Below are positions 1,950-62,623 of a stretch of 64,000 bases of DNA, in pieces. The notes under the pieces were generated by a model. That model ran no database searches, was not told the origin of the DNA, and saw only the letters and a program-made list of their open reading frames with translations. The position numbers and the translations under genes were made by a program. Numbering within the stretch: the first letter of the stretch is position 1; every line of letters begins with the position of its first letter. This DNA comes from Absidia repens (taxonomy: Eukaryota > Mucoromycota > Mucoromycetes > Mucorales > Cunninghamellaceae), in contig MCGE01000008.1 in NCBI GenBank assembly GCA_002105175.1, positions 992,001-1,056,000 on the forward strand. Reading direction: 5' to 3'.

Positions 1950-4860
1950 ATGAACACCATAAATCTTGATTATCAGCGGGACTCGATCTACACGCGATTG
2001 AGTCATTTTGCCAAACGATTACCTTGGCTCCTCCGTGCTTATGTGACTAGTTTCTTCCCTATCTTTCAATGGATTCATCGCTACAACCTCTCGGTAACGT
2101 CTCTAATCAATCTTGTAAACAATAGAAATGGTTAGTACTTACTTCGATCTATTTTCCCTTTTTCCTTAGTGGCTTTTACAGGATATGATTGCTGGTGTCA
2201 CTGTCGGTATAGTTCTCGTCCCTCAAAGTATGGCCTACGCCAAAATAGCTGGATTGGAGCCTCAATATGGTTTATAGTGAGTCTTTTATATCCAACAAAT
2301 AGACATGTTGTGCTGGTCGATTGATTTTTTATTCCTCTCGATAGTTCTTCATTTGTGGGTGTATCCATTTACTGTTTATTCGGTACCTCGAAAGATATTT
2401 CCATTGGAATGATATGTAAGTAACACCTGGTCTACTTTTGCAGCTACATATTATCGTATGCATCCGAAAAATAACCTTACTTTATCTTTTCTGCATTGAA
2501 TATTTATTAGCAACTGTGTCTTTACTTGTCGGTCAAGCAATCGCAAATGTACAAGCAATTTATCCAGAAATTAGTGGTCCTCAAGTAGCCGTTACACTTT
2601 CTTTGACCGCCGGATTGATTACTCTTGCTATTGGTATTTCCCGGTTAGGCATCTTGGTTGATTTTATTCCACGTAAGCAATGATAATGATATTAGTAAAC
2701 AAACTCTTTTTTTTTTTTTTTTTTAAAGTTGCTGTACTAATTGGATATATTTACAATAGAACCCGCTATTGCCGGTTATATGACAGGGTCCGCCATTTCC
2801 ATTACTTTGGGACAGGTACAATAATTGAAAATCAAATAAAATTGAATGTGGCCTCTAATGAAATCGCATACCGGACGACCCACAAAAGAAAAATTGACTG
2901 ATTGACTGACTGACAAATTCTTATTATTATTTTATTAGTGGCCAAAATTATTTGGGTTGAGTCAAGTGGATACCCATAACCCTGCCTACATGATCTTTGT
3001 GGACTTTTTTAAAAACCTTCCATTCACAAAACTTGATGTTGCTTTTGGACTGACTGGCTTGGTGTCATTATATTTGGTGCGTTTTGGATGCCAATACTTA
3101 TCGTCAAGGAAAGGTTTACCAGGCAGGCTACAAAAGGGTGTCTTTTATTTTGGAATCATGCGAAATGGTTTGGTGGTTATCGTGGGCACCTTGATCTCCT
3201 TTGGTATCAATAGTCGATTGGAAACAAGTCTTATCTCAATTATCAAAGATGTGCCTGCCGGATTTGATGCCCTCGCTGTACCTATGTTGGATTCTCGTAT
3301 CTTGGCTGCAAGTTCTGCTGTGCTACCATCAATCATCATTATTATGATCTTGGAACATGTCTCGGTGGCAAAATCTTTTGGACGTGTCTATGATTACAAT
3401 ATCAACCCAAACCAAGAAATCTTCGCTATTGGAATCAGTAATATCTTGGGCGCATTTTTCGGGTAAGTATCTAAAAAAGAAAACAAAAAAAAAAAAAAAA
3501 CTGGAAGGAGGGGCCACACTACAAAGGATGCACTGTTTTATTTACTGCTTATTTATTTATTTATTTTAATAGTGGGGCTCCAGCTACAGGTGCATTTAGT
3601 AGAACAGCAATCATGGCAAAATCTGGTGTCAGGACTCCCGCAGGCGGGATCTTTTCAAGTATGGTAGTTCTTCTTGCTCTTTATTTGTTGACACCCTGCT
3701 TTTACTATATTCCGGATGCCATTCTTTCTGCAGTGGTAATTCATGCCGTGGCAGATCTCGTCTCTTCTCCTCGCTATCTCAAGGAACTGTTTGATACAAG
3801 TCTTGCCGAATTCTTGGTATGGCTCAGTGGGGTGATTGTTACTATCTGTGTCGATGTTCAGTCTGGAATTTATGCTGCTGTTGGACTGTCATTAATCAAT
3901 ATGCTCTTTCGATCGGCGCGACCACCAATCAAATTCCTTGTTCGACTTCCATTGTCGGTGTCACCACATCATTATCAGCAACCACAAGATCAGGAAGATG
4001 AATCGCAGATTTTATTGGATGGAAAACAGCAACACAGCCCACGACAACGGTATATATATGTGGATGAGCAGGACCTCGACTATGACCAGCAATATGATCC
4101 ACTACCACCCGGTTTATTAATCATCCAGCTAGCTGAGTCTATGCTATACCCCAATGCGGAATTTATCTCTGAAAACATCCTGAAGAACGTGAAATCTAGA
4201 ACCCAGTGCGGCAATACAACAGAATTGGAAAAGGCAGCACACCAATTGACATGGAACCATACTGTAAGCAAATCACCAGAAACACATCGATTACAATTGC
4301 CTATTTTGCGTGTATTGGTATTGGACTTTACGGCCGTCCGACGATTAGATTGTACAGCACTCCATACTTTGACAAATTTACGAAACAACATTGACAAGTA
4401 TTCAGGGCAGAGTGTGGAATGGCATTTTGTGGGCATCCGGCATTTAAAATTGCGAAGGGACTTGATATATTATGGATTTGGATTGGAATATTCGGATGAA
4501 CAACAAAGCGGCAATATTGAGAAGAATAGTGATGACGACAATATCATCATGGACGAAAAGCAACCTCGCCAATCTCAACAATCGCAGCGCTTACAACAAC
4601 AACCACAGGATGCAACGGCCTTGGATGAAGATCTTGAAATTGGAATTGCACAAAATCATCAACATCAACATCAACATCAACATCAGCATCAGCATCAGCA
4701 TCAGCACAACGACAGCCAAGAAAAGAAAACTCAACCTTACCTCAATCAATCCGATCCTCAACGTAACCCCCAACAGTTACTTCATGATAAATACCCATAC
4801 TTCCATTGGGATATGGACACAGCAATAAACTCTATTTTGGAAACCTTGGAATTGATTTAG
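1950..4860 (+). CDS. SulP/SLC26 family sulfate permease with STAS domain
   Basis: Plasma-membrane anion (sulfate) transporter, 779 residues as assembled. Exons 1950-2093, 2182-2276, 2345-2415, 2511-2672, 2760-2815, 2939-3462, 3573-4860; all introns GT-AG and all junctions keep phase. The SulP signature is clear: DMIAGVTVGIVLVPQSMAYA in exon 2, AGLEPQYGLY, then PQPAIAGYMTGSA and GGAPATGAFSRTA, followed by a C-terminal STAS domain (LPILRVLVLDFTAVRRLDCTAL, about residues 600-660). The STAS domain is split by a long charged insert and followed by a Gln-rich tail with an (His-Gln)n run at about 4660-4705. The start is the first ATG after a TATA box. It lies tail to tail with a sulfotransferase-like gene. 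High- or low-affinity sulfate uptake cannot be told from sequence. Confidence 0.92.
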
Positions 4861-17620: not shown

Positions 17621-20089
17621 AATGATCTGGCCCTCCAAGTTTTGAAACATCATAGTTCTATTGGGTGTCAGTTGCTTTTTTTTTGTTTTGTTTTGCTTTG
17701 TTTTTGTTTTTGGTTGCCGTTGTTGTTTGTCATGTGAGTTCTGAAAAGATGGAATGAGACGCTTACGCCATATCTCTCTTCTACGGGCAGCTCCTTGAGG
17801 TCCAACCATCGTGCTCAAGAACAATCAACGATTTATCTCAGGGGAAACTAGTCTAGTATAGTGTAGTTTCGTATTGATCATCATTGTTTATTATATACAA
17901 TACATAAATAAAACAAGAATTGAAATTGAATATGACTTTGATGTAGTTTGGAATGCACAGAGGGAAACAATGGGGCTGATTGGTGTACTATGTACAATAC
18001 ATTCTACTTAGAAACGTACATTGATCCAAAAACATATCAAAAAATAATCTATGCGCAAGATTGTTTAAATTTAGTGTAAAAATAGAGACATGTTTTATTG
18101 AAACATAACAAGCAAACGTAAGTCGGGATAATAACGCTAATCTATAGGAGCGAGGGGGGGGGACGAATGTAAAAAAGGAATCTATTGTGTAAGACATGAG
18201 CGAGACAAATGAGATCATTGCTTGCGGTGTCAGGTAAAGAGGAACATGTTTTATTAAGATGTACATACAAACTATGGGGAAACTAACATTAAACTAAGTA
18301 AATGAAGGCCTCAAAAAGACAACTAAGGATGGTTCTAAATCCTAGATTCAAAATGAAAGGGGTTCCCCATGCAATTTGTAATCCCTGAGCTAAAAACGCT
18401 TATAAACTAATACTAACACTAATCTAAGATCACTATGAGCTGAAAAAAGCTACAATGATGAAGAAAAAAAAAAAGAAGGGAAAGAAGAAGAAAAAAAAAA
18501 ACTTTTGGGAGAATACACGTGGGCGGAATTTGATTTTTTTTTTTTACAACTATCAACACCATATAGTACATTGTGCAGCATTAACATCATGCGCATTCTC
18601 TTCCTATGCTTTTGATGAGAACCATTTAACAATAGCGGCTCGTATCCCTCCGCTTCCTTTTACAGCATCCATCACCTTTTATAGCGCCATGGATTCACTC
18701 TTTCTTTTGAAGCAAAACCTGCTTTCAACAACGGCAACCTCGTATCTCTGTTTCATTTTTACAGCAACCAACACTGTTCTTATTTTAAATCAACCGCACC
18801 ATTCAGTATTGAAACACTCTCCATTTTGCAGCAACGGACACCATTCAACTAAGGTAATATTGTGACTTTCGCTTGTGTTTCAGCTAATCAACAGCATGCA
18901 AATTCGACGACATGATCGCATTGAATTAACATGGAGCACATCAACTTAGTTTAGTCTATTAATGTCCTTTTCTTTAATGTTGAATAGTATGTGTCATTCT
19001 CCATAGAATAACTTATACTCTTTACTTGAACTAGTTTACTACGCGGAATTAAATTCTCAGAAGTAGCCATAGTTTCTACTTTTTTTTTTTAACTCCTGTA
19101 CCACAATTGAATAAACAACATTGATTCCATCAATATATATTACAGTCTGATCATATGTGCGATGTCGTTGCATATATTTATTATTATTCTTTATTCTCTT
19201 GGAAAGCTGATGCGGATATTATTGACACCCGCTATTAATTTTGGACGGTGCCGGGGTGCTTTTTAGCAGGGTTTTTTTTAGCAGTATGGAGGGATCGTTC
19301 TGGGAGTGTAACGGGGATATTGGAGAAAAAAAATGGTATAGGAAGGAGGCGTATGTGGCCAGGAAGAGATTTCATGCGAATTGGTGGCCAAATCAGTGTG
19401 TGACTGAATGGTGGACGGCAGCGTGGAGGTAGTTATCTGGACTTTTTATGATTTTAGGTAAAATGGTTGCTTATGGGATGGTTAGGGTCATTACATTAAA
19501 AAAAAAAAATGATTGTCCCCATTTTCTTATCCTGCATGCTCAAAATTTCAAGGCGATGCCGGACTAAATGTATCTGGATAGTCTGGTATTTTTTATTTAA
19601 AAGCTGATTTACAATAGCTAAGTTTTGCTACGGACCAATTAAAAATATCATGTTTACTAGTAACGATCATAATCGATTTGATTTTGGTTTTGATGTAGGT
19701 GCTGAATCATGAATATCTTTATTTTTGACCTATTGCATAGTGCTCACTGTATGGATAGCATGTTTGGCCTTTACAGCAGCACTCACTTCTTTTTTTTTCA
19801 TAGATGCCATGCTGATGCATAAATATTTTTTTTTTCTCTGATAAATGTACCACTTATGAAGAAATTCATCACATATTTAGCAAATAAAAAACAATATTGA
19901 ACCCATGGTACGTTTTGTTCTTACTTTATCAGCATATATATGCGGGGAACGGGAAGGATTGGGAACAAGCAATCATTTTACTACTAAAATTAAATCGCCG
20001 ATTGGCCCCTTTTAACCTTCTTTCCTTTTATTTCTTTTTTTCCCTTTTTGATATTTGCACTTTATTTCAACACGTACCTATTAAACTAG
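17459..20089. other. Long intergenic region containing one minus-strand dispersed repeat
   Basis: 2.6 kb without a convincing gene. T-runs (17519-17534, 17587-17616) follow the BCAS3-like stop. Repeat copy F occupies about 17960-18532. From 18540 to 20080 are scattered short ORFs (for example 18455-18865 and 19241-19432) without recognisable domains, splice structure or codon bias; they are judged non-coding. The last ~100 nt are T-rich and lead into the glucuronokinase gene. Confidence 0.5.
17960..18532 (-). repeat. Dispersed repeat, copy F
   Basis: Minus-strand copy. The CACGTG box is at 18516-18521 inside CCGCCCACGTGTATTC (minus strand), then a pyrimidine tract (A/G-rich on plus, 18460-18500), then the core with GATTACAAATTGCATGGGG (minus strand; plus 18340-18390), then the segment CATAGTTTGTATGTACATC (plus about 18255-18275) and 3' units with TTCAATAAAACATG (about 18080-18100). 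The core has diverged: the loop region reads GGGGAACCCC rather than GGGGAAACCC. Ends are approximate, set by where similarity to the other copies fades. Confidence 0.75.
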
Positions 20090-22291: not shown

Positions 22292-22689
22292 TGTAGAATA
22301 GCTTTATTATAATAGTGTATCTTTATTATAGTAGAATAGAACTTGATTCGTTTTTTTTTAAATACCTCAATAAAATCAATATTGTACTTTTTCTTTATCA
22401 TATTACAAAATTCTGCGGTTTTATTCTTTATACATGTATGGTGTAGTTCAGCAAGAACGCGAAGAAAGCCTTGATTATAGCGGGACGGGGTTAAATTTCC
22501 ACATTTCCAAGGAGACACTCAAAAGCAGTTGTAATAATGACATTGTTCATTATGTGACGGGACTGAGGATGGCTAATAAAATGGACGCGTTTTCTTGCAG
22601 CATATGGGTAAGAGACAAAAACTAAAAACGATCGGTACATATAAATAAGGAATCTAGTAGAGGTAGCATAAAGGAGACTAGTATGAGAT

Positions 22690-22981
22690 ATTAAAAATAG
22701 TTGACATTAATATGAAGAAACAATTATTAAAGGGGAACCGCTATATTGTGCAACGCATGAGAAAGGCTTCTGTTATTCAAGCACGACACCGGTCAAACGA
22801 AGCAAAGTGGGTGATGGTAGTAATATATATATATATATATATATATAGCACAAGACATGATAAATACCAATGGGACTTTTTTTGAAGCATGTAAAAAGAG
22901 ACACATTTTACTCAAATATTTTAGTCAAACATATATACAAACTATGGACTAACCAAGGCTGAACAAATGACAGGCGACGAA
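22690..22981 (-). repeat. Dispersed repeat, truncated copy A'
   Basis: On the minus strand this matches only the 3' half of the repeat family: TCCATAGTTTGTATATATG, ATTTGAGTAAAATGTGTC, TCTTTTTACATGCTTC, then TATCATGTCTTGTGC and a second TCTCATGCGTTGCAC unit. The CACGTG box and conserved core are missing. A (TA)n expansion at 22823-22847 sits inside. It meets copy A head to head across the A-run at 22980-23003. Confidence 0.65.
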
Positions 22982-23003
22982 AAAAAAAAAAAAAAAAAAA
23001 AAA

Positions 23004-23720
23004 CTTTCAACCCCCGCCCACGTGAAATTTTTCTCTCTCCGTCTTTTCTTTCGGATCTCTTTCTTTTTGATTATTTTTTTTTTCTTTCATTTTTTCTTCA
23101 TCATTCAACTTCTGTGGGGTTATGTTGAACTTAGAATAGTACCAGGACTAGTTTAGAAGTAGTTTCAGTTCAGGGATTACAAGATGCATGGGGAAACCCT
23201 TTCATTTTGTATTCAGGATTTGGGACCCGCCATTAGTTGAAGTCTTCATTAACTTAACTTAGTGTTAGCGTGTCCATACTTTGTATCTACATCTGAATAA
23301 CATATGACTTTTTTATATACTTCAATAAAAAAAATGCCCTATTAGCACACCCCATGTCTTACCCTTACAATTATTTTTTACTACCATGATTAGTATTGAC
23401 CGTTGTTATGTTTCAATGGTAGACGTCCCTGTAGACTTTCACACGCTCTATACAACATAATAGCTCTCCTTTTACAATTGCTTTTTTTTTATTAGTGTTG
23501 ACCATTCTTCAAATCTCACATTTAGCTCCCTCATGCTACCACCAATAGACCCTCCCAATAAGTCCTTTAATACAATGAACCCTTCGTCGTTTGTTTTAGT
23601 ATCTACAAATATAATCAATAAAATATACGTATTTACTAACTATACCCTGACCTATCGAATAATAATAATAATAAATTGCTATTGTAGATTTTTTGTGAGT
23701 GTCCTATCAAATATTTGATT
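23004..23720 (+). repeat. Dispersed repeat, copy A
   Basis: Full-length plus-strand copy. CCCGCCCACGTGAA (CACGTG at 23019-23024), pyrimidine tract 23030-23105, core from about 23135 (AGGACTAGTTTAGAAG) through GGGATTACAAGATGCATGGG (about 23173) and CCCTTTCATTTTG, then CATACTTTGTATCTACATC (about 23274) and AATAACATATGAC. The 3' half carries several degenerate units beginning TTCAATAAAA (about 23322) or TCAATAAAATATAC (about 23617). The core is identical to copies B and D over at least 29 nt. Confidence 0.8.
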
Positions 23721-24105
23721 GCTAGTTCACCCACTATAACTACTCCCCACATACCCCAATAGTTAGTTGGCAGACTTTTGATCATTAAATTAAGCATTGC
23801 CTTCATATAAACAATCAACACTTTTCTACCCACGTAAGTGCACCCAAATTATATCCCGTCCCACCCCATGCAAGCAAAACAAAACAACGAAAACCAAATA
23901 TATTATATAAGACTTTATAAAAATGTATAAAATGAATCTATTCAGCAAGTGACATATGTATAAAATAATAAAATAGTAAAAGGTAAAACTAAGAGATGTA
24001 TACTATGTTTAAATGATACATATAAAATAACTAAACTAAGTAACGGATATCGTAACACTAAAACTAAAACTAAGACTACGGCCAACACCAGGATTTTGCA
24101 CCAGT

Positions 24106-34489: not shown

Positions 34490-36819
34490 TTTGATTTGGA
34501 TCCAAATGCGCTGTTTTGCGCCCTGACATTTAGTTATACAATAGTTTTGTGATTTGCTTTGTTTTCCCTTTAGTTTTAGTTGTTATTGTATCATTATACT
34601 ATTTCCTCCAATTAGTTTTTAGTTGAATAAACATGGGGTCTTTATTGGACCTTCTCAAATATCAATTATTATGTATTGCTATCCGTAGTCATTTGAAGGC
34701 GATTGTAGTTAGAGTAGATACTATGGCTTGGCACTTTGGAATGTCAAAATCCGCTATTATGGTCATCTTACTCTTAAATTATTGTCATGACTTGTACCTT
34801 TATTTGAATAATAAAACATATCTCTTTTTACACACTTTTTTTTTTAAAAAAAAAAAAATAGCCCCTGCAGCTCTCTTTAATGTCCTATGGAGAATGTTTG
34901 GTCTTTGTTAGTTTCTCTTCTCAAGTTAGCGTTGCTCAATGTGATATGATTTAATAAAAAATTAAATGATACGAAAATGTGTTTTTATTGTGGAATATAA
35001 ATAAGAGAAGCTATTCTACAGTGCAGTGGCGGAAGGAAGGTATCATATGCAATTTTACTGTTGGTGGCAAACAGTTCTGCAGAGGTGTTGGAGTGCAAAG
35101 GCATCTGAGCAATTATGTCATGAGAAGCTAGTTATAGAGCTGGCCATGTTAAATAATTATGGATGTTGCCATGCCAATTGAATAATTATATCAATGATAT
35201 TGATATTGTGAAAAGGAAGAGGAACAAAATTCAGGCTTTCCTTTTTTGTATCCACCAAAAAAAGGCACGTCCTCACAAGAGACCGAAAAAAACAATTTCA
35301 TATCCCGCCCACGTGAATTTTTATTCTCTCCCTTTTTTTTCGCTCTCTTTCTTTCTTTTTTTCTTTTTTTTTCACCATTCAATTTCTCTGAGGTTTCGGT
35401 TACCTTAGATTAGAGTCAGGTCTAGTTTAGAAGCGTTTTCAGAAAAGGGATTACAAGATGCATGGGGAAACCCTTTCATTTTGGATTCAGGATTTAGAAC
35501 CACCCATTAGTTAGCTTTTTGAAGTCGCCATTAGCTTAGCCTTGGTCTTAGTTTGCCATAGTTTGTATCTACATTTGAGTAAAGTATTTTATATCTTCAA
35601 TAAATGATATTCCGTTAGTCTCTTTCATGTCTTCTATACATAATAAATTCCTTTTTACTGTTGTCTCCTTAATTAGTGTTGACAGTTATGGTGCTTCAAT
35701 AAAAGATATCCCTTTCGCCTCTCTCATGTCTTATACTATTATATAGTACATTAGATCCATTTTTAGCATTATCTCTTTAGATTAGCGTTGCCATTCTTTA
35801 AACCTCCAAATAGTCTCCCTCGTGTTTTCTACAATTGATCCCTTTTTCGTCTCCTTTTTGTCACACAATAAACCCGGCACCTTTAGTATAGTATTTACCT
35901 CTGCCCCTCGTATACATATTGAAACTATTTTTTCTGACCTATTAAACATTCTCCCCTGCTTTCTGTCTACCACACTATCAAAATAAATCAAAGTATCAAA
36001 ATCCTTGAAGCTTTATTTGTCAATACCAGCTCCACTATTCATATTAACTACTGAACCAAACCTACATCACTTGGGCAACCTCTCCCATAACTATTAAAGC
36101 CTTCATTAGACTAGATACACTGTATATATTCGGTATTTTATTGTGAATGGTATAACAAATAAACATAAAACTCTAAACAGAAGTCAATTGGATCCCCTTA
36201 AAAAACTGTCCATCAAAGTACGACTTTACGAAACGCTTCTAATTCCTCTCCTGTTGCTTTTATTTTCTTACAAAAGTATCTAACTAGACGAAACTCTGAG
36301 CACTGCCCAACAAAATGCTATACTATTTTTCTTGTTGATCCACAAAATTTCAAGCGGGCAGAGTTAAAAGATCGTCAAACATCGTCAATCATCGTCAAAG
36401 AAAGTAGCAGTATAAAAATCACGTTTATGACGAAAATGTGAAACTTATTTGAACAAAATGAAACGCAAAGCCGCCTGTCATCCAACCAACATTTGTAGTA
36501 TATGCTAAAATATCATACATCACATTGTATACCAAATCTTTATTTTACACACCCACTCAACACTAAAAGGTCCCATTATCATATACACCATTGGATAAAG
36601 GCAGATTTTTTTTTTTTTTTTTTTTTGATTATAACAATACAAAACAATGTATTCAGTAATTTGCTTTATTTCAATAAACCCAAAATAAAATAAAAAGTCA
36701 TCAATATACAAAAACCCAAAAGATCAATCATAGCTACACAAAATAAAAGCAAAAATATAACTGGATGATAACATTGATACTAATGCTAAATGATAGGCAC
36801 TAGCTAACTAAATAATGAT
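34490..36819. other. Long intergenic region containing repeat copy B
   Basis: No protein gene between Atg29 and PA2G4. The Atg29 3' flank has AATAAACATGG at about 34625. Repeat copy B spans about 35295-36000. The region 36000-36500 is unique AT-rich sequence, with a local ATCGTCAAACATCGTCAATC triplication (about 36370-36402). A T-run at 36606-36626 precedes the PA2G4 3' end. Confidence 0.5.
35295..36000 (+). repeat. Dispersed repeat, copy B
   Basis: Plus-strand copy. TATCCCGCCCACGTGAATTT (CACGTG at 35310-35315), a pyrimidine tract to about 35385, CTTAGATTAGAGTCAGG, TCTAGTTTAGAAGCGTTTTC, GGGATTACAAGATGCATGGG (about 35447), CCCTTTCATTTTGGATTC, CATAGTTTGTATCTACATTTG, then at least three degenerate 3' units with TTCAATAAATGATATTCC (35596), TTCAATAAAAGATATCCC (35695) and CACAATAAACCC (35863), separated by CTCTCATGTCTTATAC-like spacers. 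Confidence 0.8.
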
Positions 36820-42351: not shown

Positions 42352-43946
42352 GATTACAATAGAATATAAATTAAAAGGATGATAAAAAATGGAAAGAAAA
42401 CTGACAAAAAAAGAATTGCGCGTATGATTTTTGAAAAAGAGGGAGGGGAGTAAATTTTTTTTTTTGGATGAACGCGCGGCAAACACACAAATTTATTTTA
42501 CCGCCCGACTTCGACCAAAAGATGTGACAACTACCTGCCTAATTTCTAGGAAATGTACGCCCAAAAATATATAATTATTGCTTTGTTTGTACAAATATCC
42601 TCACCTTTCCAATGACCCTTGAACATGCACCTGAGATAAAATTTAAGTTAATTCCAACAGTCTATTGCTTTTTTTTTGTGGTAGGTAAAGAATATATAGC
42701 CCAATTCCCGGAAAAGCATGCTTGGCTTGTATGCTGTAGTTCAGCAAGAATTTAAAGTAAGCCATAATGCTGCAATGCAATTTTTGATAGTCAATTCAAA
42801 GTATTATTACATTTGCAAAAAAAAAAATCGGTTTACTCAGTGTCAGGGATAAGATTGTTGGAGTGCGATTTATGATGAAAATAGATATTCCCTCCCGCCT
42901 TTATGCAACTTGAGAGGTGGCCCCCTGAGGGATCAACTGACTTCAGCCCGGGCTTCACTTTTTATATTATATTACTTGCAAAAAAGTAAAATAGAAAACC
43001 GAGCTTTATATATACAATATCTCCACATTAACCAGTGTTAGCAGTACGGCTTAGGTTGATTAATATGAAAGGTAAGGCAGGGGTAGGGTCATATTTCATA
43101 GTAAGTGACTTAAAGTTGTCAACCAGTCATTAGGCCACTGACGCTGGGACATACATTCATAGATTAGCTAGAAAGTAATGAAAAATTACCTATAGCGGCA
43201 ATTATACGCACAGTTTAAGCAAAAGTTATTTATATAACTGGTCGATCTGGAATATAGCCGTCTTTAACGACAAGTAAACTATGTTTATCAGCCAGCTTCT
43301 CGGTTTTCCGGAAGAAAAGTGGTCATAGTAGATGAACTATAAAACAAATGTTTGGTAGAACTCCGACAAAACGACTACAATAACGATATTTTTTCAGTAT
43401 ACGATGAGTCAGAGTATGGTTAATAAAAAGAACATATTTTATTGAAGAATATTGGCATATACTGAAATTAAAGATGATGGGTTCATTGTAACAAGAGATT
43501 CAATGGAGGTAGCATGAGAAAAACACTGTATGATTTGGAGACGGTCAGCACTAATATAAAGATGTGTTTGTAAAATCAACGCTAATTCACTGTCAGGGTA
43601 TGAGAAAAATTAAAGGGACCTCCATTATTGAAGCACAACAACATTCACACTAATCAAACTTGATTGGGAGACCTATTGCACAAGACATGAGAATGACTAA
43701 TGGGACGTTTCCATTTAAGGATGTAAAAAGAGATATATTTTATTCAGGTATAGATACGGACTATGGACAAACTAACGCTAAACTAAGCCAATGAAGACTT
43801 TAATAAGCCAACTCATGATTCCAAATCCTGAATCCAAAATGAAAGGGTTTCCTCATCCATCTTGTAATCCCTTTTCTGAAAACTCTTCTAAACTAGTCCT
43901 GAAACTATTCTAAGTCCAACATAGTCGCATAGAAGTTGAATGGCAA

Positions 43947-43991
<45 letters not shown>

Positions 43992-44560
43992 AGAGAGTGA
44001 AAATAAAAAAGAGAGAGCGAACAAAAAAAAAAGTGGGAGAAAATAAATATTCACGTGGGCGGCATTTGAAATGTTTTCTGTGAAAACTGACTGCCGGCCC
44101 CTTGCCCCCAAAATCGACCAGCTTTAAACACCCTAGGTCTTTTTATAACAACAAATAACAGATCAAAACAACCAACAACTACGTAACTTTGTTCATTCTC
44201 ACCTTTACCATTAATTACGGCAAGGAATATATATATATATCCTCAGCATTTTCATGAAAGCCAATTTTTGTAACTTCTTGCTGAACTATACCAGATCATC
44301 CCTACCCTACTTAATAGAATTTTTCTAATAAACATTTCAATCATGCCACCATTCCTTTTTATTTAGCATCCTTGCACAACTGAAAACCACAACAAAATTC
44401 TATGTATGAAAAAACCAAGTTTTTATTGATAAAGGTAAAATAAAAAAGGTACAATGGAATAGGGGGGGTTTGAGTCGGGGTTTGTATATGTATAAAAAAA
44501 TATATAATAGTCTAATGTAGTATGAATATTTTGTAGATTGTATATGACAAAAGAGCATCC
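42352..44560. other. Long intergenic region containing repeat copy E
   Basis: Between alpha6 and citrate synthase, with no protein gene. The alpha6 promoter occupies about 42352-42530. 42530-43420 is unique AT-rich DNA. Repeat copy E lies at about 43425-44072 on minus, with a run of 34 A (43950-43983) followed by 8 G. 44080-44400 is unique; a short (AT)n is at 44230-44241. The citrate synthase 3' flank follows. Confidence 0.5.
43425..44072 (-). repeat. Dispersed repeat, copy E
   Basis: Minus-strand copy: TTTCAAATGCCGCCCACGTG (CACGTG at 44052-44057), pyrimidine tract with an expanded T34 run (plus 43950-43983), GGACTAGTTTAGAAGAGTTT, GGGATTACAAGATGGATGAG, GAAACCCTTTCATTTTGG, then GTCCGTATCTATACCTG, TATCTCTTTTTACATCC and CTCATGTCTTGTGCAATAGG units, ending near TTCAATAAAATATG (about 43430-43445). 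The hairpin stem has one mismatch (GAG instead of GGG). Confidence 0.78.
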
Positions 44561-48081: not shown

Positions 48082-49815
48082 AATCATATACTATATATAA
48101 AACAGATATTTTTCGTTTCTTTTTTATTTTCAAGAAATATATACAATAAATGAATATAATAAAAACCAAAAAAAGTTTATCACAGCCGAGCACACGCTCC
48201 TCTGCCTAAAATGAATTGACTATATTGCACTCTCGTCCATATACGCGCAAAAACTCGAATTGGAAACTATTTTTTTTTTCTTCGGTTTAACCCCTTGCTA
48301 CACACAGCATACTAGTAATCAACATACATTTAGACTATTCTTCCCAAAAATGTCGGTGCTTTCCGGAGTAACCTTCATTTTTCTCAAAAAGAAATAAAAT
48401 AGAAAAGTGTCTGGGTTTGTTTTGTTTATGCCTCCTGTACCTTGTCAGCCAAGCCTTCCCTGTCGAGGGCAAGGTCGGACACATCTTTCAACAATATAAG
48501 GACCATAATAACGATATCAACAAGAAAATGAAGTGCGTCGTTATTATTATTGGTGTAGTCATGCTATATCTAAAAATACATCGCCCTTCTAGACTCTACT
48601 CTTTGTTTTGTTTTTGTCGAAACAAAAATAATGAAGGAAGTATAGGAACTGCAATTCAGCGAGAGACTGGAGCAAATATTTCAAATCCCGCACACGTGGT
48701 TTTATTTTCCTCTTATTTTTTTTTTCGCGCTCTCTTTTTTTTTCTTTCTTTTTTTCTTCGCCATTAACTTTTTTGAGGTTATAATAATCTTAGATTAGTG
48801 CTAGGACTAGCTTAGAAGGGTTTCAGCTCAGAGATTACAAGATCCATGAGGAAACCCTTTTATTTTGGATTCAAGATTCGGGACTACCATTAGTTTTGGC
48901 GTTTTGGAACCTCTATTAGCTTAAGTTTAGTGTTAGTTTGTCCATAGTTTGTATCTACATCTGAATAAAATATGTCTCTTTTTACATCCCTCATTAAAGT
49001 ATGTTCCATTAGTCTCTCTCATGTCGTGCACAATGGATCCTCTTTTTTTTTTTTTTTACTTCATTTACTCAAACTGAAATGCTCTCCTGGGTCTACCCTA
49101 TCTCATACAAATAACTCAAAAATGGTACGCTCATAAGGGAGGTCTGAAGCGCTAACAATATTTAGTGAGAACAAATTGCATAGAGTCCATAGTATGTTTC
49201 GGATAAAAAAGTTAAAATGGTCAATGCAAACAAATGATTGACATTATTAAGAACCGATAATTTTCAAGGATCATCGTCCCCTCAATTGATCTCCATTCAT
49301 TTACTGCAGCAAAGTCCATCATCTCCGAGCCCATGGTGCCCCCTTTTTCTCCTACCAGCTTATACATACATTTATTACACGCACTAATACAAACTAATAC
49401 TAATTTCAGTAAGGCAAAGGAATTGCATCTATTTTCCATACGAGTCTTCCACTACATTGTGTCCAGTCTATATCGAGCACATGTTGCTTACCGCAATTTT
49501 TCTTCCCTATTTCCCCGTCATTTTCACCACATACACATACATATGATAAATGATACACATACAAGTAATTTCAAATGAGTTTTATTTATTTGGGATAGCA
49601 ATGAAGAATAAAATGATCAAATGGAAAATCATCGACCAGTGAATAAAAACAACTGTGAATAGCAATATATATAATAAATATTTATGTAATTGAGAGGAAA
49701 TCAAAGGATATAAATACTACTGATGATAAAATAACTAATAATGGTAATAATAGTGATAATAATAATGATAAAAAGGGTACACTACACTAAAAAAATGATC
49801 CACTAAATCATGTTG

Positions 49816-52903: not shown

Positions 52904-54734
52904 ATGCTTCGAAGGGCCACCATTCTTTCGACTACTGCTCGTGCTACGGCTAGGTCAAGTAGATCATCTTTGTTGATGATTGTAAGTGATATTAGAAAAC
53001 GCAGTATATCAAGAAATAAGAATTTAGAACTAACGACTCCCTTCTTTTCCACAGAATAGACCTTTTACTACCCCAAGTAATGGCGAACAAGTCGTCAAAA
53101 AGTCAGGTTCCTTTGGCAAAAAGCTATTCTGGATGACCTTACTGGGAGCTGGCTCTTATGGTGGAGCTACATATTTGGCCTTACACAACGAAGCCTTTCA
53201 CGATACCTTTACAACCTACATTCCAGGTGGCGAACGTGTATTGGATGCTTTAGAAGATGCTGCTGCCGATGCCGACTTCAAACACTATTACGAACAAGGA
53301 CTACTATACAAAAACCAGGCTGCTGAAACCGCTTCACAGATTTCTACACATGCTGGCAACTTTAAGGAATCTGCTTTGGATTGGTATGAATACCTTAGTG
53401 ATGTCATTGCTTACTTGAAAGGTGAAAACGATACCGACTCTTTACCCAACACCTCTCGACAACAACGATCTTTCTCCAGCAAAAAGGAATCTCCTATCTT
53501 TGATAACATCGTCAATGGTGGTGGTGCAGCACGTATTCCTGTCTTCAAGTTATCCACTTCTCCTGGTGAAGAACCTGTCTTGGACGACCTCATCAAGACT
53601 ACCCAACAACTGATCAAGACATTGAACGAAGTGGGCCTTACTGGACATGCGAAGCGATTGGCTGATTTTGCATCAAGGGACATCAAGCGGATTGACCAAG
53701 AATTCAAGGCGGTGCGTGACGGAGAAGAACTTGTGCGTACAAAGGTGGCCCAACTTAGTGCATATGCCGACAAGGTGGACAAGAAGGTATCCGATCGATA
53801 TGACGCTACCATTGCCAAGGTGACAGCTGCTCAAGACAAGTCAAAGAAACGTGTGGCTGACAAGGCGGACAAACTCAAGCAGCTATTAGTGGTCGAACAT
53901 ACCAAATTACAACAACAACTGGTGGACATGGGGCAACTCGAATTGGACAATCAACGCGATCAAGCAATGGTGATGCTTAAGGAAGACCTCAAAACACAGA
54001 TGATTACACTTCAACAAAAGTTTGCGGAACAGGTACAACAACGAGTGGAAGAAGAACGTGGTGGACGATTGGCGAAGGTGGACCAAGTTGTTGCTAGTCA
54101 AACTCAATTGGAACGACTCTCCAATGCCAATGCGGAATACCTGGATGATTCTCGGAAAGCTCACCAACTGCTTGTGGCCATTGATGCTTTGAAACGTGCT
54201 GCCTATGCTGGTAACAAGCAAGCCTTTTTACAAGAACTGCAATCCCTACGTGTGCTCAGCCATCCTGATAGTCCCTTTGCCAACCAAGTTGAAAAACGCA
54301 ACGATGCTTTGGTGCAGGTGGTGGCAACCAACATCTCGGAAACTGTTGCCCACCATGGTATCAGCTCCTATACTCAATTGGTTGATCGATTTGAAACTGT
54401 GGCCACCGAAGTTCGTGATGCATCATTGATTCCTGAAGAAGGCAGCTCCATGGTCTCTCACATTGTGTCGATTGTCCTTAGTAAGCTCATGTTGCCCAAG
54501 CATGGTCTGGTTCCCGGTGATGATATCGAAGCGCGTCTTGCCCGTGCCCAATACTACTTGACCCATGGTGATGATTTGGAAAATGCTACTCGGGAAATGA
54601 ATCAATTGAAGGGATGGCCAAAGCACTTGACCTCCGACTGGTTGGATGCCGCGCGCCGTCATTTGGAAATCAAGCAGGCTTTGGATGTGATGCGAACTCA
54701 AGCTGTCTTGAATAGTTTATTACAATTAGAATAG
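52904..54734 (+). CDS. MIC60: MICOS complex subunit Mic60 (mitofilin)
   Basis: Inner-membrane organiser of crista junctions, 585 residues. Exons 52904-52981 and 53055-54734. The N-terminus MLRRATILSTTARATARSSR is a mitochondrial presequence; a membrane helix follows (KKLFWMTLLGAGSYGGATYL). The centre is a long coiled coil (KADKLKQLLVVEHTKLQQQL ... ELDNQRDQAMVMLKEDLKTQ), and the C-terminal mitofilin domain carries ADKVTQ-like VAIDALKRAAYAGNKQAF, FRLI-region SMVSHIVSIVLSKLMLPKHG and YYLTHGDDLENATREMNQL with LKGWPKHLTSDWLDAARRHLE. The length is normal. The family call is very secure. The presequence has its own exon, as in citrate synthase. Confidence 0.95.
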
Positions 54735-60606: not shown

Positions 60607-62623
60607 ATTAGATTTTTTCCTTTTTTTTTTACGTCTGTATTTTTTTTATACGTACATTTTTTGATTTGTAATTAGTTATTGCATTTATTGAACTAGTTAT
60701 ATATTCTTACTATCGATTATGTATTTTTTTTCTTAATACCGTCTCTTTAAAATAATATTCTAGGGACTTCAAATAAATGATTACAACCATAATATTTACA
60801 CTGTTTAAATGACTTTTATGAATGTGCGGATTGTGATGGATAGAAATTGGAGTTGATAGCGGTGGTAGGATATAAGTGATTGGGATATTGTCGATGAAAG
60901 TGGCGACGGGATTGATGATAATTATATTAATCGCCATGCTTGACTTTATTTTAACAAGAAAAAAAAAATGCAAAACGACAAGGGATATTTTATTCATATG
61001 AAAATATAAACAAAGACAACTAAACTATACTAGTCCACAGACTACTATGACATATAAGTAAACGTGAAGCAATCTGGGGTGTGTGCGCGTGGGACGAGAC
61101 AGTGTAGAATGTACGGGTCTGGTGTTATATTTTTGTTAAATAGATATAGAATAAATTAGTTCAATAAAGGAAAAGAGGGTTATTTTACAGTGAGTTGCCA
61201 AACTGTTCTACAGTGAAAGGACAAATTAAACTAGGACTGAATTGTTCCACCTGGTCCGCAAATCCATCAAGAAAAGAGAACAACCATGCTGCACCTGCTA
61301 CTGAATGGTTACGGATACTTTTATAAGAATAAAAATACTATATTGATGATGTTGTAAAAGAGAAGACGGAGAGAAGAAAATGCCGGAGCTCCCTTATTCA
61401 AATCGATATGACTGGTCAAAAAAGACAACTACCACCACACAAAACCTGGATTTCAAAACCCGCCCACGTGAACGGTTTTATTTTCTCTGACCCGCCATTT
61501 TTATTTTTTCGTCTCTCTTTCTTTTCTTCTTCCACAATTGTGGCCCCCATGAGGTTTTGACGGAATTAGATTAGTGTCAGGACTAGTTTAGAAGCGTTTT
61601 CAGCTCAGGGATTACAAGATGCATGGGGAAACCCTTTCATTTTGGGTTCAGGATTTGCGACCACCATGAGGTTTCTTATTAGTGTCTTCAGTAACTTAGA
61701 TTAGTGTTAGTGTGTTTATAGTTTGTATATATATATAAATAAAATATGTCTATTTTTACAAATTTCAATGAAAATTGTCCCATTTAGTTTCTCTCATTTT
61801 TTGCACCATAGATCCCGTTTTTTACTACAATCAATGCCGATTGATTAGTGGTTACCTTTGTTGTGCTTCAATAGCAGATTTCCCTTTAATCTTTTTCATT
61901 CCTTATACCATACAATATATATTTAGATTATGTTTCATTATCCTTCAAAAGTCACACTAGCCTCTCTCATACTTGCTCCAATAGATCCCTCCCATGTACA
62001 ATGAACATCTCCTTTCGCTTTAGTGTCTACCAATATGCTTCAATAAAATATACCTTTTTATTAACCATCCTCTGACCCATCTGATAATGAACAATATCAT
62101 TATGCAGCTCTTTCAGGTTGTTCTACCAAACATTTTCTTTCAAGTTTACCCAATATCACTACTTTTCTTCTCTGCAGATACAGAGATTGTTTGGCAGTAT
62201 TGTCAGAAAATCAATATCTCCTTTTCCTGTTTCTCTTTTTTTTCTTTTTTTTTTTCCTTGTGATCATCCAAATGAGTAATGACCAATTTATCTGAGTCAA
62301 TCCACCTTCCAATGATTATAATCCCACACTGACATTTTCAAAAACACTTTCTTAAAAAATAATTGAATATACTCTCTATACAAGTATGGCAAAAGACCGA
62401 GTAAGACAGATGTGACCCGAAGATATACGAGTAAACATATTTTATTTACATGTAAGACTGCAGAAAACTACCTACTACATATAGATAGATAGATAGATAT
62501 AATGCGTATATAACAAGAGTACTATAATCTACAAATTCTAATAACAAACTAAGCTAGGCTGAGATAAATAAATTAAAAGCTGCCGCCATCCCCTCCATCC
62601 AAAAAAGTCGAATCAAAGTTTGT
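60607..62623. other. Long convergent intergenic region containing repeat copy D
   Basis: Between the NIPA-type gene and Rib7, with no protein gene. 60610-61440 is AT-rich with minus-strand short ORFs only. Repeat copy D lies at about 61448-62110. A short (GATA)n microsatellite at 62481-62500 and the Rib7 3' flank follow. Confidence 0.5.
61448..62110 (+). repeat. Dispersed repeat, copy D
   Basis: Plus-strand, best-preserved copy: TTTCAAAACCCGCCCACGTG (CACGTG at 61465-61470), pyrimidine tract (61480-61535), ATTAGATTAGTGTCAGG, ACTAGTTTAGAAGCGTTTTC, GGGATTACAAGATGCATGGG (about 61606), CCCTTTCATTTTGGGTTC, ATAGTTTGTATATATATAA, AATAAAATATGTCTATTTTT and at least three 3' units (61764 TTCAATGAAAATTG, 61866 CTTCAATAGCAGA, 62038 CTTCAATAAAATATACC) with TCTCTCATACTTGCTCC-type spacers. 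Confidence 0.8.

Follow-up and report, generated by a model that had tools for sequence, protein, structure and literature searches.

The genome of the fungus Absidia repens contains a dispersed repeat family of high copy number, whose copies share one layout with three conserved modules, are mosaics of one another and lie outside predicted genes, mostly beside their 3' ends. Tentatively, and at somewhat below an even chance, we read this family as an ancient, very-high-copy, non-autonomous dispersed element whose layout resembles that of a Pol II transcription unit of short length. In the window (the whole stretch of 64,000 nucleotides that was analysed) the original prediction had placed seven copies, and all of them were recovered by a profile of the family. 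This profile, as well as the consensus, was made from 46 copies, 37 of them chosen by exact core or similarity. The copies found in the window, a weak fragment and the parts of copy c7 are the following:

17970..18542, minus strand: copy c1 (nhmmer 333 bits, model 2-540)
22506..22966, minus strand: copy c2, without its 5' third, i.e. box and core (215 bits, model 252-706)
22998..23752, plus strand: copy c3 (556 bits, model 2-749)
34783..34961, plus strand: weak fragment of the 3' part (17 bits)
35289..35911, plus strand: copy c4 (466 bits, model 2-618)
43297..44079, minus strand: copy c5, in two profile pieces (555 and 36.5 bits)
48672..49047, plus strand: copy c6, recognised to model position 376 only (348 bits)
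61450..62186, plus strand: copy c7, near full length (nhmmer 571 bits, model 8-764 of 766)
61454..61472, plus strand: 5' box of c7 with CACGTG, promoter-like (one mismatch against the box)
61475..61536, plus strand: pyrimidine-rich tract of c7, ending in the putatively initiator-like CTTCCACA (from reading of the sequence)
61566..61646, plus strand: conserved core of c7, -42 to +38 about GGGATTACA at 61608
61738..61743, plus strand: first AATAAA of c7 (from reading of the sequence; the block is kept family-wide)

The order of parts that had been described, i.e. box, pyrimidine-rich tract, core and AATAAA-like signal, was confirmed in the six full copies with some variation in the letters, and the exact 20-mer GGGATTACAAGATGCATGGG was present in three of them (c3, c4 and c7). 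CACGTG was also found, as claimed, at the six full copies and at a single other site, the position of which is 15295 and not 15293. Decayed relics adjoin intact copies. Several copies have, ahead of the element and some 350-450 nt before the core, a degenerate repeat with a unit of about 22 nt around GCTATTCTACAGTGAGTGAC (61179-61215 in the window).

The genome searched comprises 47.37 Mb in 79 contigs. With up to three mismatches allowed, a 19-letter piece of the core gave 3,953 matches (1,955 and 1,998 on the two strands; reversed control, 5), the 19-mer of the 5' box 2,621 (control, 1) and a 40-mer of the core 2,498 (control, 0), and a 19-mer of the 3' part gave 1,905 (control, 15) versus the 3,953 of the core piece of equal length. 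The core 20-mer GGGATTACAAGATGCATGGG was found in its exact form 1,004 times (507 and 497 by strand; reversed control, 0). A chance origin of the repeat was ruled out by the reversed-pattern controls, which gave only 0-15 matches, and a tandem satellite by the scattering of the copies over both strands. The core count corresponds to about one copy per 12 kb of genome, and from these searches the copies in which a core can be recognised are put at about 3,000-4,000 genome-wide. In an unselected sample of 164 kb, made up of the window (64 kb) and C1:1-100000, 15 copies scored 200 bits or more, of which 14 had the core; there were also ten weaker fragments, the split piece of c5 aside. The spacing of the copies appeared irregular, with close pairs. 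Between two copies, at C1:24469-24910 (about 4470-4910 in L041), there is a very long TG/CA dinucleotide run, visible as CV/TH frame runs. A 21-mer of the core had no match in collections of viral and prokaryotic contigs, as expected for a fungal repeat, and no public proteins with likeness to the longest open frame across the core were found.

The three conserved modules are the CCCGCCCACGTG box, the core of 80 bp and the AATAAA block, which differ from the consensus by about 6-11% versus 21-25% in the lead and the 3' part, as measured on copies chosen by the box alone (20) or by position (15 contiguous copies). Among the contiguous copies, the box diverged by 0.11, the core by 0.098 and the poly(A) block by 0.073, as compared with 0.252 for the lead and 0.226 for the 3' part. 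When the pooled set was read in steps of 10 nt, the core (-42 to +38) showed 0.05-0.15, the AATAAA block 0.07 and the rest mostly 0.11-0.40, the stretch from core to AATAAA being intermediate (0.12-0.30); the pooled value of the box, 0.04-0.05, is lowered by the 20 exact-box copies and should be read against the 0.11 of the contiguous copies alone. The core was less diverged than the 3' part in every copy with enough sequence, i.e. in 11 of 11 among the 15 contiguous and in 18 of 18 among the 20 box-chosen ones, with a mean ratio of 3' part to core of 2.4-fold and 2.5-fold, respectively. It was present in all 20 box-chosen copies (divergence 0.02-0.18). CACGTG was retained in 11 of 13 contiguous copies, where the median retention of hexamers was 0.30. 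When the box-chosen and contiguous sets were taken together, 29 of 34 copies had kept the first AATAAA. The spacing between CACGTG and ATTACA, followed in 25 copies, was 123-186 nt in 22 of them; in the other three it was larger, perhaps because the motifs were wrongly paired.

The 20 box-chosen copies were hand-picked out of a list of 100 exact boxes, so that no divergence can appear in their box; some known exact-core places on C1, C2 and C5 were skipped, which biases this set against the core. The contiguous set was formed by copies of at least 200 bits on a profile that contains the core, with ten weaker fragments excluded and the split c5 piece merged with c5. A sample picked by similarity showed a greater contrast between core and flanks than both sets. 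Strong homology extends over about 0.75 kb and a weaker one from about -500 to about +900 from the core start, past the AATAAA; a degenerate internal repeat with a period of about 100 nt lies downstream of the core, and the layout is strand-asymmetric (A-rich, box, T-rich). The anatomy named in the original prediction (box, core and poly(A) signal) is thus supported by modules conserved beyond their surroundings.

The copies had been said to lie between genes, and an overlap of more than 60 nt with predicted coding segments was seen in none of the 53 strong copies; these segments were called with a hexamer score trained on long frames and not taken from an annotation. By the same prediction, 38 of the 52 callable facing gene ends were 3' ends and 14 were 5' ends, and among the 17 copies with both neighbours called, nine lay between two 3' ends and none between two 5' ends. 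No neighbour could be called for 18 of the 53 copies, and copies sharing one intergene were each counted. According to Pfam, the neighbours in the window encode a sulfate permease, a sulfotransferase, a GHMP kinase, a dynamin, an acyltransferase, a citrate synthase, a cyclin, a NIPA transporter, RibD and a BCAS3-like protein, all of them ordinary genes. The claimed lack of an ORF for reverse transcriptase or transposase held, as Pfam named none in 25 of the 33 window frames of at least 150 codons; of the other eight, one is Mic60 and seven were judged from the frame list only. The Mic60 gene (53034-54731 in the window) has a second relative in A. repens with 80% identity and looks duplicated. 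In the 164-kb sample, CACGTG occurs at 16 sites, 12 within elements and four in predicted coding blocks, about 19.5 being expected under a second-order model; it seems to be avoided in the non-coding DNA of this sample outside the repeat. Matches to the box with up to four mismatches were all inside elements (13 of 13 in the 164 kb).

The possible nature of the core was studied at the level of RNA and protein. No covarying RNA fold was detected in the core among 44 sequences, RNAalifold giving -0.05 kcal/mol with four pairs, none of them changed on both sides, and four single-copy folds had energies near those of shuffled sequences (z-scores from -0.16 to -1.26). A folded RNA was rejected on both grounds. 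In the frame of the core ATG, codon 11 is a TAG stop in 27 of 66 copies, and the divergence of this frame at codon positions 1, 2 and 3 (0.128, 0.059 and 0.109) does not follow a coding order. In the longest open frame (0.109, 0.128 and 0.059) the third position is the least diverged, and in the remaining short frame (0.059, 0.109 and 0.128) it is the most diverged, the second being nearly equal. A protein-coding core, or a family of small-protein genes, was rejected on the frequent TAG and on the lack of a convincing coding pattern.

Early-diverging fungi are thinly represented in libraries of repeats and ncRNAs. In the window, Rfam gave no match at the gathering threshold and one chance-level match (E 4.4), and ARAGORN found no tRNAs. 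A tRNA or Rfam family, or a SINE with a Pol III-derived 5' region, was not encountered there, the outer 5' end lying outside the view. The original prediction knew of no named family that matched, and none was found in Rfam or in searches of the openly readable literature, subscription papers and Repbase-type libraries falling outside this search. For the related species Absidia glauca, repetitive DNA is given as 35%, and no such family is named in the consulted part of that account (PMC4133162).

Hallmarks of mobile elements were also looked for. No terminal repeats were seen in the 0.75-kb model or its flanks, although the ends of the element could not be placed, and the model contains no inverted repeat of the kind that bounds a MITE. 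The upstream motif GCTATTCTACA had no pile-up of a partner near the 3' end. At least 150 reverse-transcriptase domains are spread over many contigs of the genome (150 of 213 candidates were scored), many of them in long open frames, and several groups with equal score and frame length suggest recent copying of retroelements. No elements were found in 52.8 kb around 15 RT domains, the flank of about 1.5 kb at each being too short to exclude LTRs; that the repeat forms part of RT elements was rejected on this weak test. In 100 kb of C1 there are two close same-strand pairs of copies, which rank 2nd and 18th in likeness among 21 pairs. Their gaps showed no Pfam RT or gag in the five of 13 frames of at least 100 codons that were scanned; within the same five frames, the only Pfam name was that of a ZIP transporter, in one of the two gaps. 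LTR pairs were rejected for the sampled 100 kb on the lack of RT or gag in these five frames and on the ranks of the two pairs in likeness.

The copies are mosaics, in which variants of different parts assort almost independently. Linkage was studied in 66 copies, including the 37 picked by exact core or similarity, at 75 two-state sites. It was strong at short range only (r2 up to 0.85 within 10 nt) and reached the sampling floor beyond about 30 nt, and all four allele combinations occurred in 95-100% of the site pairs in each distance class. Of the 75 sites, 21 lie in the loosely aligned pyrimidine tract, and the result was unchanged on the remaining 54, for which the mean r2 was 0.19 at 1-2 nt, 0.135 at 3-9 nt, 0.041 at 10-29 nt and 0.025 at 30-59 nt, with a floor of 0.02. 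In the 29 copies not chosen by core or similarity, linkage was near the floor (0.05) throughout, with a slight rise below 10 nt. Almost independent assortment was also seen for the multi-base haplotypes of the lead, of -4/-3 and of +40/41; among 28 pairs, the nearby +40 and +47 were linked (p 7e-6) and three others had p values of 0.007-0.04. Shared runs of at least 25 nt were seen in 101 of 2,145 pairs of copies versus 50.8 in column shuffles, i.e. about twofold. In addition, copies L011 and L084 are closely alike in a central tract and unlike in the flanks on both sides. Both the near-independent assortment and this mosaic pair indicate past recombination within the family, through either ectopic conversion or a switch of template while copies were made.

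Relatives of six whole-element queries were sought, each with 2,630 to 4,129 candidates of which the best 40 were scored. Among these best 40, no query had a relative above 75% identity over 600 nt or above 82% over 400 nt, and the best relative by bit score had 72-79% identity across about 410 to 720 nt. At 600 nt or more, the top identity among the best 40 was 73-75% in five queries, and the sixth, of 558 nt, reached 75% over 553; at 400 nt or more it was 74-82% per query, and one shorter match had 88% over 266 nt. As recent copying would yield closer relatives, there is no sign of it at the six places tried. Most of the core has diverged evenly: the 77 of its 90 sites with less than 20% divergence had a mean of 0.059 and a ratio of variance to mean of 1.06 (0.93 simulated, p 0.17), which matches neutral decay from a fixed form. 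When all 90 sites were considered, including 13 polymorphic ones above 20%, the core was uneven (4.35), as was the 3' part (2.4). The counts of core changes per copy were slightly above chance scatter (variance to mean 1.5), and the divergences of core and 3' part were uncorrelated from copy to copy (r -0.27, p 0.16, n 29; r 0.04, n 63). These results point in different directions. The even decay over most core sites leans toward an old mobile element; however, the lack of close relatives and of an age correlation between core and flank leans toward the RNA genes, or toward gene conversion.

Several known systems resemble the family in part. CORE-SINE type elements are old dispersed families with a conserved central domain and variable ends, all of which are found in the Absidia family too; however, the latter has no part from a tRNA or a known Pol III RNA in the window, by ARAGORN or by Rfam at the gathering threshold. 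Solo LTRs of fungal retrotransposons contain a promoter, a transcribed part and a poly(A) signal, and are intergenic and of high copy number. The Absidia copies share the module order, the high copy number and the intergenic placement, but lack recognised termini and pairs around pol in the limited tests made. The 21U-RNA loci of Caenorhabditis elegans are short units that lie scattered in their thousands, every one of them behind an upstream motif, and what is conserved in them is this motif and not the RNA; the Absidia family likewise has thousands of scattered short units with an upstream motif, whereas its putatively transcribed core is itself conserved too. The SIDER2 elements of Leishmania are, according to the consulted part of their description, degenerate dispersed retroposons located in gene 3' regions, in which a conserved block of some 80 nt comes after a stretch rich in T (PMC5509151). 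By that partial description, and not by sequence, the Absidia copies are similar in being degenerate and dispersed, with a T-rich tract and a block of about 80 nt by predicted gene 3' ends, any origin of theirs as retroposons being putative. As far as the same source goes, SIDER2 has two tandem signature boxes of 79 nt, whereas the Absidia copies have one core with the degenerate repeat of about 100 nt downstream, and add an upstream CCCGCCCACGTG box and a conserved AATAAA. Also, SIDER2 is described as sitting inside 3' UTRs; the Absidia copies lie mostly beside predicted 3' ends (38 of 52 facing ends), in either orientation.

The original prediction had left the choice between a non-autonomous element and a family of Pol II non-coding RNA genes; the module anatomy that it invoked stood, and the promoter and poly(A) roles are putative. 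In the non-autonomous element that we favour, an intact copy begins with the CCCGCCCACGTG box and continues with a pyrimidine tract, in which an initiator-like CTTCA is found, with about 220-230 nt that contain the 80-nt core, and with AATAAA; the box and the AATAAA would start and end a transcript. The copy number with its strand balance, the low divergence of the three modules, the even decay of most core sites, the retention of CACGTG and the first AATAAA, the relics next to intact copies and the short range of linkage all speak for this account. The modules would have been kept since copies needed them for being copied; most copies would have decayed afterwards (about 6% at most core sites) and would hardly move now, and sequence would have been exchanged among them via template switching or ectopic gene conversion. 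This reading is weakened by several points: no terminal repeat was seen, no autonomous partner emerged at the 15 RT loci with their short flanks, the six queries had no close relatives among the best 40 scored, and the core scatter is strongly uneven once the 13 polymorphic sites are counted. In addition, simple retroposition does not carry along a promoter located before the transcript start, and a single shared age predicts a positive correlation between core and 3' part, which was not found. The main rival and bolder case is that the copies are short RNA genes functioning in place, each giving a polyadenylated RNA of about 220 nt under purifying selection for a local effect of transcription or for the dosage of a redundant RNA. 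We consider it unlikely, although the joint conservation of box, core and AATAAA, the independence of core and flank divergence, and the six queries without close relatives, by which copies seem long in place, argue for it. Against it, most core sites diverge evenly and not patchily, there is neither a conserved fold nor an Rfam match, and thousands of redundant copies would demand strong local or dosage selection. In its full form, of some four thousand individually maintained mini-genes for a short polyadenylated ncRNA, one per 12 kb, with a composite box that is confined to these copies in the 164-kb sample, and with sequence exchange free enough to make the family resemble a recombining population, the proposal would be a little less probable still.

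Concerted evolution, in which dispersed copies convert each other mostly around the core and homogenisation mimics conservation, agrees with the near linkage equilibrium (linkage at short range only), the almost independent multi-base haplotypes and the mosaic pair. Nevertheless, a single conversion centre would not leave the box and the AATAAA block as separate islands of low divergence, and shared runs of at least 25 nt are only about twofold above shuffles (101 vs 50.8 of 2,145 pairs); we find this account improbable. A density of about one per 12 kb outside predicted genes, facing ends that are mostly 3' (38 of 52), none of 17 copies between two 5' ends and the strand-asymmetric A-rich, box, T-rich layout could also be explained if the copies were cis-acting DNA elements that a mobile ancestor had spread on one occasion, for instance origins of replication or boundaries at gene ends. 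Nonetheless, the copies seem irregularly spaced and include close pairs, any insertion in a compact genome would be expected to avoid promoters and the conserved AATAAA block would have no obvious role; we judge such elements very unlikely. The least probable reading, by a little, is that of solo LTRs of an extinct LTR retrotransposon, with the box in U3, the core in R, then AATAAA and U5. The module order fits it and the mosaicism agrees with template switching in reverse transcription, but the two close same-strand pairs in 100 kb, 2nd and 18th of 21 in likeness, enclose no Pfam RT or gag (5 of 13 frames) and no LTR termini were recognised, the test at RT loci being narrow (flanks of about 1.5 kb).

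The family combines three conserved modules with a lack of close relatives for the queried copies and near linkage equilibrium between copies. With about four thousand such repeats in 47 Mb, this fungal genome would contain a mobile element of unassigned class that has decayed, or else short Pol II units in very great number, and both readings can be tested with ordinary data, i.e. RNA-seq, 3'-end reads and a second Absidia genome.
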